DNA of 64,000 nt, from assembly GCF_023721795.1 (NCBI RefSeq), contig NZ_JAMQYE010000002.1:186001-250000 (forward strand), read 5' to 3'. Source of the DNA: Zeimonas sediminis (GTDB lineage Bacteria; Pseudomonadota; Gammaproteobacteria; Burkholderiales; Burkholderiaceae_E). The notes below the pieces were generated by a model. That model saw nothing but the letters and a program-made list of their open reading frames with translations, did no database searches and had not been told where the DNA came from. The position numbers and the translations under genes were made by a program. Shown piece by piece: positions 44,061 through 53,610 of this stretch (the first letter of the stretch is position 1; the number at the start of each line of letters is the position of its first letter).

Positions 44061-47000
44061 TCAACTCTGCTCGAATCCGCCGCCGGCGAAGTTCTCGAAC
44101 TTCGTGTACTGGCCGACGAAGGTCAGCCGCACCGTGCCGATCGGACCGTTGCGCTGCTTGCCGATGATGATCTCGGCCGTGCCCTTGTCGGGCGAATCGG
44201 GGTTGTAGACCTCGTCGCGGTAGATGAACAGGATCACGTCCGCGTCCTGCTCGATCGCGCCCGAGTTGTGGCTCACGATTCCGTCGGCCAGCCAGGACGC
44301 CGGACCCGGCACGGTCAGGTCGAAGACCTCTTCGTCGCCGTCGGGCTCGATCGCCACGACCCGGTCCCAGAACAGGTCGGAATCGGCCCAGGTGCGCAGC
44401 GCGTCGTCGTCGAGCAGCTCGGCATAGTGGCCCAGCGTGGCGCGCGACGGGGCGAATCGGAAGTGAGAGGCGCCGCCGTAAGAGGTGCCGCGCAACGAAG
44501 CCATTTCCCGTTGCGTGACGCCGCGATCGCCCATGACCGCGCGCACCTGCGCGAACACCTCGCGAGGAAGCGCGTCGACGTTCGCGTTCGCCCGGGGCAC
44601 AAGCACCTCGAGTCGCGCGGCCAGTTGCCTCGCAGGCTCGGCGCGAGGCCCGAAGGCCCCGACGCTCGCAAGGAACTCCCGCTGCTGCTCGCTGCCCGAC
44701 ACGTCGACATTCCAGACCGTCCTGCCGGTGGCCGGCTTCATCGCGCGAATGCGGGCCACGATGCCGAAGCGCAGCAGCAGCGCGGCGACGTCGCGCGCCA
44801 GCCCTTCGCTCGCGGTCGCGAAGTACACGCGCGCCGCCCCGCGCTGGCCGGCGGGGCGCAAGAGGATGGAGCCGTCGGTGGCCCACAGGTGGCGCAGCAG
44901 CAGCGCGACCTGCGCGTTCGACAGGCCGAACACCTCGCCCGGAATCCGCTTCTCGTGCGAGCGCTGGCCGAAGATGCCGAGCTTGCGCAGCCAGGCATTG
45001 ACGCCCTTGTGATGCCAGCGGTCGCCGTTGCCGGAAATGACCAGTTGGTGCCAGTTGCCGCGGCCCGCATGGCGGGTCACGGTGCAGCCGAAGGACTCCG
45101 CCGCTCGCCGTACCGCCTCCGAGTTCTCCTCGGAAGCGGTCGTGTAGCGCATCGGCTGGCCCGACAGGTAGCTGCCGTCGCCGATCATCTGGCCGAGCAG
45201 GATCACGTGCTCCTCGGGCCAGACGACGAGCGAGGCCGGTTCCGGTACCCGGCGCGCGAGGGCGATCCGGTCCCCGACCGAGACATCGTCCAGCGTGCGC
45301 CATCCCGCGCCGGTGAAGATGCGGTGCCCTGCGGTGGCGCGCAGCGTTCGGCCGCTGGCGAGCGACAGCCTGAAGACCGGCTTGCGCCCGACCGGCCAGA
45401 CGCGATCGCTGCGGGCCGCAACCACCCGCTGCGACGCGTCCATGGCCAGTACCTCGGGCTCGGCGCCGACCAGGCTCGCGATCGGCGCGCGGCGACCGTC
45501 GGCCAGCATGACCAGGGTGTCGCCAGGCACGCACTCCCGAAGGTCGGACATCACCGGCCGCTTGTTCGGCCGCTGCTCGAGCGAGCGGTTCAGCTGCGAC
45601 AGCGCGATCACCGGGCAGTTCAGCTCCTTGGCCAGCCCCTTCAGGCCGCGCGAGATCTCGGAGATCTCGGTGGCCCGGTTCTCTCCGGACGATGACCCTG
45701 CCATCAGCTGCAGGTAGTCGATGATGACCAGGCCGAGCTGGCCGCACTGGCGCGACAGCCTTCGCGCGCGGGCGCGCAGCTCGAGCACGCTGAGCGCCGG
45801 CGTCTCGTCGATGAAAAGCTGCGTGTCCTGCATCTTCTGCATCGCGTTGGTCAGCCGCGGCCAGTCGTCTTCGAGCAGCCGTCCGGTGCGCAGCCGCTGC
45901 TGGTCGAGCCGTCCCACCGAGCAGACCATCCGCATCGCGAGCTGGGTCGCGCCCATCTCCATCGAGAAGACCGCGACCGGCAAGCCTTGGTCGACCGCGA
46001 CGTGCTCGCCGATGTTCAGCGAGAACGCGGTGTTGTGCGTGACGACGTAGTCGTCGGTCAGGTAGAGCCGCGACGGATGCGACACCGCGATGCACTGCGC
46101 CTGCGCGCGCCGGCTCGGCTCGATCGACACGATCACCGGCTGGCGACGCCGGCTGCGCCCGCCCTGCAGCCGCTCGCACTTCGCGCTCATCAGGAACAGG
46201 CTGGCGGGGTCCGGATGTGCGATCGTGCAGACCCAGGCCGGCGCGCCGGGCTTGCGCCGGCCGTCCACCGTGAACGAGGTGCGCTTGCCCCGCACCGTGC
46301 ACCAGCCGCCCAGCGAGCGAGCCAGTTCCTGCACGTCGCGAGCGAGCCGCTCGCTGGCCGTCGAGAACCGCACGGTGCCCCAGCGCTCGACCCATCCGTC
46401 GGTGTCGAGCAGGCCGCGCAGCAGGTCGAGGCGCGCGGCGCGGCTCGCGTCGAGGTAGCAGCGCGGAATGAACTTCGTCGACGAATCGGTGCCCCAGAGC
46501 CCGAGCGTCTCGAGCGCGCACCTCAATGGATTGCGTGCCGGCCGGCCAGGCTGCCCGATTCGCCTGGTGATCCGCCAATCCGGCCCGCCGGCCGCCACCA
46601 GGGTCAGCGACTCACCGACGCGCTCGCGCATCCGCTCGAGGACGTCGTCGGCGACGTTCGAGAACCCGACCGAGGTCCCGTTGAGGTTGCCGTCGCCGAT
46701 CAGCGCGCCGAGCACCCACGGATCGACCGGCAGCGGATCACGATGGCCGAAGTCGCCCGATGGCATGTCGATCCACAGCCGCCGCTGGTAGCGGCGCTCG
46801 CCGAGCAATTCGCGCAATTCGGCGAGCGTCAGCGTGCGGGGCGCGCTCCACGCGCGATGATGAACCGTCCAGAGATGCTCGTCGCAGCACTCGGCGCCGC
46901 GGCCGTCGGAGAAGGTGACACGCCAGATCTGCCGCTCGCCCTGTGGGTAGACGGCAGTGACGATCGAGGGTGCGCCGTCGACCGAGGCGAGCGCGTCGCC

Positions 47001-47762
47001 GACCGCGAGCTCGCCCATCGTCTTCCACCCTGAAGGCGTGCGAACCCGTGCGTCGAGCGGCTGGGCCTTGCCCATCGACGGGCGACCGGCCACGATGATC
47101 AGGTCGCCCTGCTGCAGGCCGGAGGTCATCCGGTCGAGGTCGACGAACCCGGTCGGCACGCCGGTCACATCGTTCGGGTTGTTCTGGTTGTACAGCTCGT
47201 CGATCCGCTCGACGACCTTTCCGAGGAGGTCGGGCAGCTGGTGGAAGCCGGCCTGGCCGCGCGAGCCCTCTTCCGAGATCTGGAAGATCCTCGATTCGGC
47301 CTGGTCGAGCAGCTGGCGGGTGTCCTTGCCCTGCGGGTTCAGCGCGGCCGACGAGATCTCGTCAGCCGTGGAAATCAGCCGGCGCAGGATGCCGCGGTCG
47401 CGAACGATCTCGGCGTAGCGCCGGATGTTGGCCGCCGACGGCGTCTCCTGGGCGAGCGCGTTCAGGTAGACCAGCCCGCCCGCCTCGTCGGCCTTGCCGG
47501 CGTTCTGCAGCGCCTCCAGCACGGTGACCACGTCGGCCGGCTGGCCGCGCTCGATCAGCCGCGCCACCTGGTGCCAGATCAGCCGGTGGTCGTGGCGGTA
47601 GAAGTCGTCCTCGCGCAGCACGTCGGCCACGCGGTCGAAGGCGTTGTTGTCGAGCAGCAGCCCGCCGAGCACCGCCTGCTCGGCCTCGATCGAATGCGGC
47701 GGCACGCGCAGCGCGGCGATCTGCGGGTCGAGGGGCGCTCGGCTTTCGGGAACGGATGACAT
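44061..47762 (-). CDS. dnaB: Replicative DNA helicase DnaB with two inteins
   Basis: The frame has 1233 codons without interruption. Residues 1-232 are the DnaB N-domain and the start of the RecA-like domain, up to Walker A GRPSMGK. Residues 233-577 are the first intein. Residues 578-743 run from TAFSLNIGEHVA, with Walker B IIDYLQLM, to MSDLRE. Residues 744-1166 are the second intein. Residues 1167-1233 begin SGAIEQDADVI and end the helicase. Removing both inteins (345 and 423 residues) leaves 465 residues, the normal DnaB length, and restores GRPSMGKT and SDLRESGAIEQDAD. DnaB unwinds DNA ahead of the fork. Since the gene is essential, both inteins should splice. Long shadow frames in this region are not genes. 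Confidence 0.97.
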   Translation of the reverse strand: MSSVPESRAPLDPQIAALRVPPHSIEAEQAVLGGLLLDNNAFDRVADVLREDDFYRHDHRLIWHQVARLIERGQPADVVTVLEALQNAGKADEAGGLVYLNALAQETPSAANIRRYAEIVRDRGILRRLISTADEISSAALNPQGKDTRQLLDQAESRIFQISEEGSRGQAGFHQLPDLLGKVVERIDELYNQNNPNDVTGVPTGFVDLDRMTSGLQQGDLIIVAGRPSMGKAQPLDARVRTPSGWKTMGELAVGDALASVDGAPSIVTAVYPQGERQIWRVTFSDGRGAECCDEHLWTVHHRAWSAPRTLTLAELRELLGERRYQRRLWIDMPSGDFGHRDPLPVDPWVLGALIGDGNLNGTSVGFSNVADDVLERMRERVGESLTLVAAGGPDWRITRRIGQPGRPARNPLRCALETLGLWGTDSSTKFIPRCYLDASRAARLDLLRGLLDTDGWVERWGTVRFSTASERLARDVQELARSLGGWCTVRGKRTSFTVDGRRKPGAPAWVCTIAHPDPASLFLMSAKCERLQGGRSRRRQPVIVSIEPSRRAQAQCIAVSHPSRLYLTDDYVVTHNTAFSLNIGEHVAVDQGLPVAVFSMEMGATQLAMRMVCSVGRLDQQRLRTGRLLEDDWPRLTNAMQKMQDTQLFIDETPALSVLELRARARRLSRQCGQLGLVIIDYLQLMAGSSSGENRATEISEISRGLKGLAKELNCPVIALSQLNRSLEQRPNKRPVMSDLRECVPGDTLVMLADGRRAPIASLVGAEPEVLAMDASQRVVAARSDRVWPVGRKPVFRLSLASGRTLRATAGHRIFTGAGWRTLDDVSVGDRIALARRVPEPASLVVWPEEHVILLGQMIGDGSYLSGQPMRYTTASEENSEAVRRAAESFGCTVTRHAGRGNWHQLVISGNGDRWHHKGVNAWLRKLGIFGQRSHEKRIPGEVFGLSNAQVALLLRHLWATDGSILLRPAGQRGAARVYFATASEGLARDVAALLLRFGIVARIRAMKPATGRTVWNVDVSGSEQQREFLASVGAFGPRAEPARQLAARLEVLVPRANANVDALPREVFAQVRAVMGDRGVTQREMASLRGTSYGGASHFRFAPSRATLGHYAELLDDDALRTWADSDLFWDRVVAIEPDGDEEVFDLTVPGPASWLADGIVSHNSGAIEQDADVILFIYRDEVYNPDSPDKGTAEIIIGKQRNGPIGTVRLTFVGQYTKFENFAGGGFEQS
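44265..45533 (-). other. Intein 2 in DnaB (class 1, LAGLIDADG)
   Basis: The element spans precursor residues 744-1166 (423 aa), inserted between Glu743 and Ser1167. Block A is CVPGDTLVMLADGR; block B has RATAGHRIF (T810, H813); blocks F/G are VFDLTVPGPASWLADGIVSHN, followed by Ser at +1. This is the standard Cys1 pathway. Endonuclease motifs are LLGQMIGDG (about 855) and LLRHLWATDG (about 956). The layout is very like the long-studied Synechocystis and Rhodothermus DnaB inteins, but the site is shifted slightly towards the N-terminus. Confidence 0.93.
46032..47066 (-). other. Intein 1 in DnaB Walker A (class 3 hallmarks, LAGLIDADG)
   Basis: The element spans precursor residues 233-577 (345 aa), inserted between Lys232 and Thr578 of GRPSMGK/T. 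It begins with Ala (AQPLDARVRTPSGWKTMGEL), not Cys/Ser/Thr, so class 1 splicing is not possible. The class 3 set can be read: Trp298 at block B (DEHLW), Cys557 at block F (AQCIAVSHP) and Thr575 in block G (VVTHN), with Thr at +1. The middle holds LAGLIDADG endonuclease motifs LGALIGDGN (about 361) and LRGLLDTDG (about 448). An intein with this first residue type is known from mycobacterial and phage DnaB. Confidence 0.92.
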
Positions 47763-47981: not shown

Positions 47982-48437
47982 TCAGGCGGTCTCGCCGATC
48001 ACCGTGACCTTGATGTTGGCCAGCACGTCGGTGTGCAGCGCCACCTCGACCTCGTACTCGCCGATCGCCTTGAGCGGGCCGTTGGGCATGCGCACCATGG
48101 CCTTCTCGACCGCGGCGAAGCCCTTCTTCTTAAGGGCCTCGGCGATGTCGAAGTTGCCGACCGAGCCGAACAGGCGGCCGTCGACGCCGGCCTTCTCGGT
48201 GATCTCGACCGCCAGGCCCTCGAGCTGCTGGCCCATCGCCTGCGCGGCGGCCAGCTTGTCGGCCTGGATCTTCTCGAGTTCGGCGCGGCGCGCCTCGAAT
48301 TCCTGGATCGCGGCCTGGGTAGCGCGCCGCGCCTTGCCGGTCGGGATCAGGAAGTTGCGGGCGTAGCCGTCTTTCACCCGGACGACGTCGCCGAGCTGGC
48401 CGAGGTTCACGACCTTTTCGAGCAGGATGATCTGCAT
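47982..48437 (-). CDS. rplI: 50S ribosomal protein bL9
   Basis: The 151-residue protein opens [36 protein letters not shown], the invariant N-domain of L9. A long connecting helix ([20 protein letters not shown]) and a C-domain with [21 protein letters not shown] follow. It binds 23S rRNA at the base of the L1 stalk. It is the last gene of the rpsF operon, 19 bases after rpsR. Confidence 0.98.
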
Positions 48438-48456
48438 GTTCTCGTTCTCCCGCGGC

Positions 48457-48732
48457 TCAGTGGTTGTCGGTGAACGGCAGCAGGGCGAGGAAGCGCGCGC
48501 GCTTGATCGCGACCTGCAGCTGGCGCTGGTAGCGCGCCTTGGTGCCCGTGAGACGGGCCGGGATGATCTTGCCGGTGTCGGTGATGAAGTCCTTCAGCAG
48601 GTCGACGTCCTTGTAGTCGATCTGCTCGATCTTCTCGGCCGTGAACCGGCAGAACTTCTTGCGCTTGAACAGCGCGGCCTGCGCCGGACGGCGCGTTTTC
48701 TTGTCCTTGGAACCACGACGGGCAAAAGCCAT
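48457..48732 (-). CDS. rpsR: 30S ribosomal protein bS18
   Basis: This is a 91-residue basic protein with [40 protein letters not shown] and the conserved [18 protein letters not shown] end. It pairs with bS6 on the small-subunit platform. The first ~20 residues are a basic extension ([16 protein letters not shown]). It lies between priB and rplI. Confidence 0.98.
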
Positions 48733-48745
48733 TTCAGTACCCCTG

Positions 48746-49111
48746 TCAATTCGATGTCGGTTCGAGTTCGGCGAAGCGGGTCACGTGGAGCACCAGCGTC
48801 TTCGACAGCTTGCGGCGCGGCGCGAGAAAGCCGAACGCCGCGATCGCCTGGCCGAGCCTCAGGCCGTCGGCGCGCTGCGCGGCCGGCCCGGAAAAGCTCA
48901 GTGCGATGTCGAATTCCACCTGCCTGCGTTGCCCCGCCTGGGTCACCTCGCTGCGGTGCGCGAGCCTTGCGTCGAGGATCGGGATGCCCGCCGGCGTGTA
49001 GCGCAGCGTTTCCCTGCCGACCAGTTCGCCCGTGAGGCGGATCTCGTTGGCCGGATCGATCGTGGATCCCGCCCGAGATTCGCTGCCTGGGCCTTGCTGG
49101 CGCCCCGTCAC
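48746..49111 (-). CDS. priB: Primosomal replication protein N (PriB)
   Basis: The 121-residue protein starts at GTG. It is a single OB fold: [82 protein letters not shown]. PriB helps PriA reload DnaB at stalled forks. Its place between rpsF and rpsR is characteristic of beta- and gammaproteobacteria. The first ~20 residues are low-complexity and a later start cannot be excluded. Confidence 0.92.
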
Positions 49112-49148
49112 TCGGTCATGCCGCGCGGCAGCCTGGCGACCTTTCGCG

Positions 49149-49514
49149 TCAACCCTGTTGCGGCTCGGAAACGGCCTTGCGGGCCTCTTCCTTCTGGATC
49201 TGCTTGAGCATCGGCGAAGCGCCGGTCTCGGCCTTCTTCATCGACACGACCAGATGGCGCAGCACGGCGTCGTTGAAGCGGAAGGCGTGCTCGAGCTCAT
49301 CGAGCGTGGGCTGGCCGCACTCGATGTTCATCAGCACATAATGCGCCTTGGCCATCTTCTGGATCGGGTAGGTGAGCTGGCGGCGGCCCCAGTCTTCGAG
49401 GCGGTGCAGCTTGCCTTCCTGGCTCTCGACCAGCGTCTTGTAACGCTCGATCATTGCCGGAACCTGCTCGCTCTGATCGGGATGCACGATCAGCACGATT
49501 TCGTAATGACGCAT
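49149..49514 (-). CDS. rpsF: 30S ribosomal protein bS6
   Basis: The 121-residue protein starts at [18 protein letters not shown], with AAGGAGA a few bases upstream; the ATG seven codons earlier is less likely. Family blocks are [45 protein letters not shown] and [13 protein letters not shown]. It forms a heterodimer with bS18. The region upstream has the direct repeat described separately. Confidence 0.97.
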
Positions 49515-49557
49515 CGTTTCTCCTTGTATTCGCACGAACGCTGCACCCGCTCAAAGG

Positions 49558-52965: not shown

Positions 52966-53228
52966 CCCGTTTTCTCTTGGCGAGCCTCGCGCGGGCTGGC
53001 TGGCGAGGCGCCGCGCTTTCCGCTCCGGGTGCTGCGGCCCCGCTGCGCGGGGCTTCCCTCGCCTTCCTCGTCCGCGGCGGGTCGGGCGCAACTCGCGGGC
53101 CTACCGGCCCGCTCAGACAGCGCCCTCCCTGATCGCCGCTCCCTTCGGAAGCGCTCGGCTTGCACAAGGAGCGGAAAGCGCGGCGCCTCGCCAGCCAGCC
53201 GGACACGTCATTGAAGCGCGAAAACGGG
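52966..53228. repeat. Palindromic repeat unit, copy 1 (inverted relative to copy 2)
   Basis: The 671-base gap 52940-53610 holds no credible gene. Copy 1 has perfect 32-bp arms at 52994-53025 and 53169-53200 (GGCTGGCTGGCGAGGCGCCG...), and a further CCCGTTTTC/GAAAACGGG pair at 52966-52974 and 53220-53228. Between the arms lies a core of about 143 bases (53026-53168) containing GCCCCGCTGCGCGGGGCTTC and CCTTCGGAAGCGCTCGGCTT. The same core, reverse complemented, makes up copy 2. Confidence 0.85.
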
Positions 53229-53365
53229 AAGCTCCGATCCGCTCCCGCGCGCGGCCGACACCACTGCGCCCGAGCCTCAGCCAGCCGAAGTGCAGGGCGC
53301 TTCCGGATGCCACAACGCGCGGAGGTCGGCACAATTCATCCAACCGTGAAGCCAGGACGCATCGA

Positions 53366-53579
53366 GTGCCGGCGTGCGGGCGAGGCCCGTCGTTTCGCGC
53401 CCTTGTGCAAGCCGAGTGCTTCCGAAGGGAGCGCGGGAGAAGGCGCGCAGCCTGTCTGAGCCCGCGAAGCGGGCGAGTTCTGCGCGCCCCCGCGCGGACG
53501 AGGAAGACGAGGGAAGCCCCGCGCAGCGGGGCCGCAGCACCCGGGCGCGAAACGACGGGCCTCGCCCGCACGTCGGCAC
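53366..53579. repeat. Palindromic repeat unit, copy 2
   Basis: The arms at 53366-53402 and 53543-53579 are 37 bp, with one mismatch (GTGCCGGCGTGCGGGCGAGG...). The core (53403-53542) reads TTGTGCAAGCCGAGTGCTTC, CTGTCTGAGC, GACGAGGAAGACGAGGGAAG and CCCCGCGCAGCGGGG. It is the reverse complement of copy 1 with substitutions. The arms of the two copies have no obvious similarity to each other although each pair is self-complementary. No open frame is convincing. Confidence 0.85.
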
Positions 53580-53610
53580 CCGCACCGTCACCAAGAAGAG
53601 GAAGAAGAAG

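Follow-up and report, generated by a model that had tools for sequence, protein, structure and literature searches.

Two inteins, assigned by sequence to different splicing classes, in the dnaB gene of Zeimonas sediminis

How does a single replicative helicase gene come to hold two inteins with different splicing chemistries, and does the combination itself matter? The question is raised by the dnaB gene in a stretch of 64,000 nucleotides from Zeimonas sediminis (contig NZ_JAMQYE010000002.1, positions 186,001 to 250,000), called the window below and numbered from its first letter. It is very probable that this chromosomal dnaB was invaded separately by two mobile intein lineages and that the mixture of classes is incidental, because the class found at a site is simply that of the intein lineage homing there. 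Each intein would have arrived on its own, bringing a separate LAGLIDADG homing endonuclease and occupying a separate site within the ATPase domain. The evidence consists of the borders and residues of the inteins, their predicted folds, a patchy distribution and the presence of relatives in phage helicases, inserted at these sites.

Translation of the minus strand at 44061-47762 gives 1233 codons in a single frame with one stop at the end, as in the original prediction, which left the strand unstated. The two blocks that it proposed are borne out by their junctions and by the DnaB sequence that flanks them: the first lies between GRPSMGK and TAFSLNIG, the second between VMSDLRE and SGAIEQDA, and removal of both leaves a DnaB of 465 amino acids (aa). 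Pfam profiles match the flanks as DnaB_C (expectation value, E, 1.7e-98) and as the DnaB N-terminal domain (E 1.7e-35), and NCBIfam TIGR00665 covers precursor residues 21-1225. The parts of the gene are as follows.

44061..47762, minus strand: dnaB precursor with two inteins, 1233 aa (open frame; DnaB families; sole dnaB match in the genome)
47067..47762, minus strand: N-extein, aa 1-232, ending in the P-loop sequence GRPSMGK
46032..47066, minus strand: intein 1, aa 233-577, 345 aa, class 3 by sequence, at the P-loop site (Trp/Cys/Thr set, junctions, model, Foldseek)
46140..46724, minus strand: LAGLIDADG homing-endonuclease part of intein 1, motifs LIGDG and LLDTDG (approximate borders, by eye)
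46869..46871, minus strand: Trp66 of intein 1 (B:12)
46092..46094, minus strand: Cys325 of intein 1 (F:4; precursor Cys557), the expected first nucleophile according to PMC6195587 and PMC4031507
46038..46040, minus strand: Thr343 of intein 1 (G:5)
45534..46031, minus strand: middle extein, aa 578-743, starting with Thr+1
44265..45533, minus strand: intein 2, aa 744-1166, 423 aa, class 1 by sequence, at the SDLRE/SG site (residues, model, Foldseek)
44379..45236, minus strand: LAGLIDADG homing-endonuclease part of intein 2 with an extra helical stretch, motifs IGDGS and LWATDG (approximate borders, by eye)
44061..44264, minus strand: C-extein, aa 1167-1233 and stop, starting with Ser+1

The Trp/Cys/Thr (WCT) definition of class 3 inteins, their monophyly and a proposed link to phages are treated in PMC4031507, PMC3196547, PMC7664689 and PMC5050341, and class 3 splicing has been shown for DnaB mini-inteins (PMC5222942). 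Intein 1 has the complete class 3 set, namely Ala1, His64 (B:10), Trp66 (B:12), Cys325 (F:4), Thr343 (G:5), His344 and Asn345, followed by Thr+1. In an alignment of 84 sequences (the window, 78 of 80 named loci and five unnamed ones, with the incomplete L059 and L103 left out), all 84 have the same residue at each of positions B:10, B:12, F:4, G:5, G:6 and G:7; Ala1 is present in 83, the exception being L071, the gene of which is spread over two frames. The class 3 assignment of the original prediction, based on the Ala start and the Trp/Cys/Thr set, thus stands at the level of sequence. By the class 3 route, Cys557 would attack the Lys232-Ala233 bond, the N-extein would be transferred to Thr578, and Asn577 would then cyclise. 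Of the endonuclease motif residues, D125 is Asp in 78/84 sequences and D223 in 75/84. Four relatives of intein 1 (L013, L015, L016 and L017) have decayed endonuclease motifs and intact splicing residues.

The AlphaFold2 model of intein 1 has a mean predicted local distance difference test score (pLDDT) of 93.9. Its best Foldseek matches are the endonuclease-bearing inteins TliVMA (E 3.3e-17) and PI-SceI (E 2.1e-15), with the class 3 DnaB inteins of Mycobacterium smegmatis and M. chimaera next after the endonuclease-bearing ones. Against solved class 3 inteins, the model gives a template modelling score (TMt) of 0.79 for 6rix, with a root mean square deviation (rmsd) of 12.4, and up to 0.57 for 6bs8. 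A profile built from ten relatives finds the same class 3 DnaB inteins in the PDB (6rix, E 3.6e-13; 6bs8, E 1e-11), and it matches the gp41-1 intein (6riz, 6qaz) equally well. Because gp41-1, which is naturally class 1, scores similarly, these comparisons support the Hint fold more than they do the class, which neither structural nor sequence similarity can fix by itself; the predicted class of intein 1 rests instead on its residues.

Intein 2 has the features of class 1: Cys1, the block B TxxH sequence T67AGH70, Asp405 in VFDLTV, and His422-Asn423 followed by Ser+1. The class 1 assignment by its Cys start, also part of the original prediction, is supported by the invariance of C1, T67, H70, D405, H422 and N423 in all nine aligned sequences. 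Pfam Intein_splicing (PF14890) covers precursor residues 751-1166 (whole-protein E 1.5e-17). The model, with a mean pLDDT of 84.2 and weak stretches at 170-173 and 313-319, resembles TliVMA and PI-PfuI, and its splicing part resembles the Ssp and Npu DnaB inteins, which are also found by the intein 2 profile together with PI-MtuI. Splicing would begin with a thioester at Cys744, continue with transfer to Ser1167 and end with cyclisation of Asn1166, and excision of both inteins would yield the 465-aa helicase. Mini forms of intein 2 that lack the endonuclease occur in L018 (genome G008; 153 aa) and L036 (genome G036; 146 aa), and weaker matches lie elsewhere, in L037 (G017:C85, 30% identity), G450:C149 and G458:C103.

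Both inteins contain two DG motifs and the fold of a LAGLIDADG homing endonuclease. The Asp residues of these motifs are, we assume, catalytic. Motifs and models together indicate that both inteins carry such endonucleases, which would be active.

The whole genome (three contigs, 99% complete) holds one dnaB match and no second one, in line with the original prediction, which saw no other copy in the window, and it is a fair inference that the host must keep both inteins functional. It might be argued instead that one of the two inteins has decayed and lost the ability to splice, with helicase supplied otherwise, given that relatives with decayed endonucleases exist and that the genes of L071, L090 and L100 are spread over two frames. 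This is very improbable in view of the single dnaB and of the intact splicing residues in both blocks. Purifying selection also argues against it, computed for intein 2 only: between the window and its closest relative in the genus, G007 (L003), whole intein 2 is 89% identical, with a ratio of nonsynonymous to synonymous divergence (dN/dS) of about 0.12 (0.062/0.51). A dip in identity in this comparison is seen at intein codons 60-120.

The inteins are unevenly spread among close relatives. A search with the precursor gave a match in 60 of 61 genomes, and within the genus dnaB was found in 17/18 genomes, the window's included, with none in G006 (68% complete). Both inteins are present in two of the 17 (G000 and G003, in the latter of which the gene ends at the contig end), intein 1 alone in four (G010, G013, G015, G017), intein 2 alone in seven (G004, G005, G007, G011, G012, G014 and, as the 153-aa mini form, G008), and neither in four (G001, G002, G009, G016). 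Among these 17, the two inteins do not occur together more often than expected by chance (Fisher p 0.33).

This variability bears on the possibility that the pair is kept as a regulator, with splicing dependent on redox, metal or damage state and an active helicase delayed under stress. Such a role has been proposed for DnaBi1 of M. smegmatis, the splicing of which is inhibited by oxidation through a disulfide between a catalytic and a non-catalytic cysteine (PMC6195587). Intein 1 has eight cysteines, one of them at B:7, in a block that adjoins the active site; this position is Cys in 77/84 and Thr in 7/84 of the aligned sequences. However, a pattern in which inteins vary within a genus and 4/17 genomes have neither fits a parasite better than a switch that the cell needs, and the motifs of both endonucleases are preserved, which is what homing inteins should show; regulation is therefore an unlikely reason for the pair. 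A more elaborate version, in which each intein is a functional gate with a chemistry of its own (a Cys-rich class 3 redox switch and a class 1 second control) and two live endonucleases compete for one gene, is speculative and quite improbable; if it were true, helicase maturation would need two conditions at once.

Beyond the genus, the intein 1 profile matches 11/74 genomes of the family and the intein 2 profile 16/74, the latter including weaker matches away from the SDLRE/SG site. In an even sample of the order, the counts are 22/399 and 14/399 genomes, not all of these matches being in DnaB; for intein 1, at least 15 of the 22 are located at the DnaB P-loop. Both inteins lie in DnaB in G000 and G270, and in G242 both profiles match, but on separate contigs. 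A scan of genome_contigs with the intein 1 alignment gave 215 relatives, the best 80 of which, not a random sample, constitute the named loci; five of them (L048, L055, L057, L058, L060) appear identical to family genomes counted above. Intein 1 is preceded by GRPSMGK or ARPSMGK in 77/80 loci, the junction being incomplete or frame-broken in the other three, and is followed by Thr+1 in 80/80.

The second site can be judged in 79 of these 80 loci (L067 ends too early), and 12/79 P-loop class 3 loci, mainly from Burkholderiales and Rokuibacteriota, also carry a class 1 intein there. These are L057, L060, L073, L079, L080, L085, L087, L088, L090 (spread over two frames), L091, L103 (incomplete at the start) and L108, with class 1 inteins that are 57-74% identical to intein 2. 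Betaproteobacterial cases include Quisquiliibacterium, Rubrivivax, Tepidimonas, a Comamonadaceae metagenome-assembled genome (MAG) with the start missing and a Burkholderiaceae MAG; five Rokuibacteriota MAGs, one frame-broken, add to them. All four endonuclease motifs are found as searched in 9/11 doubles (the window and the ten with both inteins whole), the exceptions being L079, in which intein 2 reads LWATAG, and L108, in which the first motif of intein 1 was not found by pattern. The original prediction had considered two inteins in one helicase rare, a view that does not survive these counts, and the class mixture recurs among Betaproteobacteria. The two-intein arrangement is not due to chance, since relatives with identical junctions are found repeatedly. 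An assembly artefact joining two alleles has a next to negligible probability, as the same double arrangement is present in separately assembled records such as L057, L060, L085 and L108, and G007 shares intein 2 at the level of identity given above.

Relatives at the same sites are also found in phage helicases. The phage contigs of IMG/VR provided the best 80 of 124 intein 1 relatives, with 14 inspected, and three intein 2 relatives. All 14 inspected sequences lie between GK and T; ten, two look-alike pairs among them, belong to proteins that match DnaB strongly, and the other four to proteins without such a match. The phage DnaB of L187 has an intein at the site of intein 1 that is 58% identical to it, and that of L267 has one at the SDLRE/SG site of intein 2, 62% identical. 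Unlike the window, each of these two has a single intein in the stretch seen, with exteins 51% and 38% identical, respectively. Annotated phage (477) and plasmid (29) records gave relatives of intein 1 only at less than 60% identity. The DnaB inteins of phage loci L268 and L269 lie two residues past the second site of the window, preceded by SDLRESG or SDLKDSG, which is presumably the cyanobacterial DnaB intein position.

The history of the two insertions is suggested by extein and intein 1 trees obtained by quick searches, with long branches flagged and support from the Shimodaira-Hasegawa-like approximate likelihood ratio test (SH-aLRT). In the extein tree the window groups with G007 (96), and these then with G001 and G016 (95). 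G007, whose exteins are 97-98% identical to those of the window, has no class 3 intein; within this group intein 1 is found in the window only and intein 2 in the window and G007 only, where the two copies are sisters in the intein 2 tree (99/99). The simplest story is that intein 2 came first and intein 1 later.

Several points weigh against separate invasion in this order. It is possible that the distribution reflects loss from G007, G001 and G016 and not a late arrival in the window. The dS of 0.51 between the intein 2 copies of the window and G007 is about twice the 0.22-0.31 of the exteins. Co-conversion at the P-loop is at most weak, with a DNA identity to G007 of 0.87 at codons 240-279 versus 0.88-1.0 in other 20-codon extein blocks. 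A clade of intein 1 with its four genus-mates is not rejected by the approximately unbiased (AU) test (p 0.597; constrained tree 5.5 log units better). Moreover, it is from the observations above that we infer splicing, endonuclease activity and the order of arrival.

Horizontal acquisition of intein 1 from a donor of Burkholderia type was considered separately. The quick tree, in which its neighbours are the inteins of Burkholderia, Paraburkholderia, Trinickia, Dyella and Paludibacterium (SH-aLRT 93), is suggestive; the AU test gave no support, and the idea was dropped.

The gene lies downstream of the S6, PriB and L9 genes, with a likely rpsR between the latter two, which is a normal chromosomal setting. 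The upstream features are the following.

47982..49535, minus strand: chromosomal cluster rpsF, priB, rpsR, rplI
49149-49535, minus strand: rpsF (S6), by NCBIfam
48746-49111, minus strand: priB (PriB), by NCBIfam
48457-48732, minus strand: likely rpsR, its identity read from the open reading frame between priB and rplI
47982-48437, minus strand: rplI (L9), by NCBIfam

In the same genome, Pfam Intein_splicing and LAGLIDADG_3 match inside dnaB only, a search that is not exhaustive, as the splicing profile missed intein 1. Elsewhere in the window, 52990-53600 contains clustered inverted repeats, the arms of which are 33-83 nt long with 86-97% identity. This 611-bp stretch has 45 matches in its own genome, itself included, and looks like a family of interspersed repeats resembling repetitive extragenic palindromic (REP) elements.

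Searches of a library of open-licence papers found no title or abstract on a betaproteobacterial double-intein DnaB. The original prediction that the class mixture is undescribed fails in general, given the published M. smegmatis DnaB (PMC6195587); restricted to betaproteobacterial genes, it may be literally true. P-loop class 3 inteins recur in Burkholderiales DnaB (at least 15/399 genomes sampled), sometimes alongside a class 1 intein elsewhere in the gene, which corrects the claim of rarity. The genus shows every state (none, either, both and a mini form) and is a natural series for measuring intein gain and loss.

Among known systems, the closest in type is M. smegmatis DnaB, in which DnaBi1 is a class 3 intein at the P-loop (site b) without an endonuclease and DnaBi2 a class 1 intein at site a with one (PMC6195587). 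In the window, too, the P-loop is interrupted by a class 3 intein and a later part of the ATPase domain by one of class 1; host protein, pairing of class with region and the Lys/+1 junction in the P-loop are shared. The class 3 members differ: that of M. smegmatis is a 139-aa mini-intein with Ser at +1, a B-block DxxH and Asp at B:7, whereas intein 1 has 345 aa with an endonuclease, Thr at +1 and Cys at B:7. The host here is a Burkholderiaceae-type proteobacterium rather than a mycobacterium. Intein 2 and its flanks match NCBIfam PRK07773 continuously (577-1226 on profile positions 230-884), a family that we take to be of mycobacterial type. The nearest complete counterpart is dnaB of Quisquiliibacterium transsilvanicum (L060), in which the two inteins occupy the sites used in the window, each with the searched endonuclease motifs, and are 67% (intein 1) and 69% (intein 2) identical to those of the window. 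Archaeal MCM offers another likeness, two endonuclease-bearing inteins in one replicative helicase, albeit MCM and not DnaB. Double inteins are discussed in PMC10643990, which notes the absence of an endonuclease from one M. smegmatis intein and describes homing interference in haloarchaeal MCM; because both inteins in the window keep their endonuclease motifs, unlike the M. smegmatis pair, the window offers a bacterial case for such interference. The double-intein DnaB is therefore a kind already known, and the gene described here is its proteobacterial member, with endonuclease motifs kept in both inteins.

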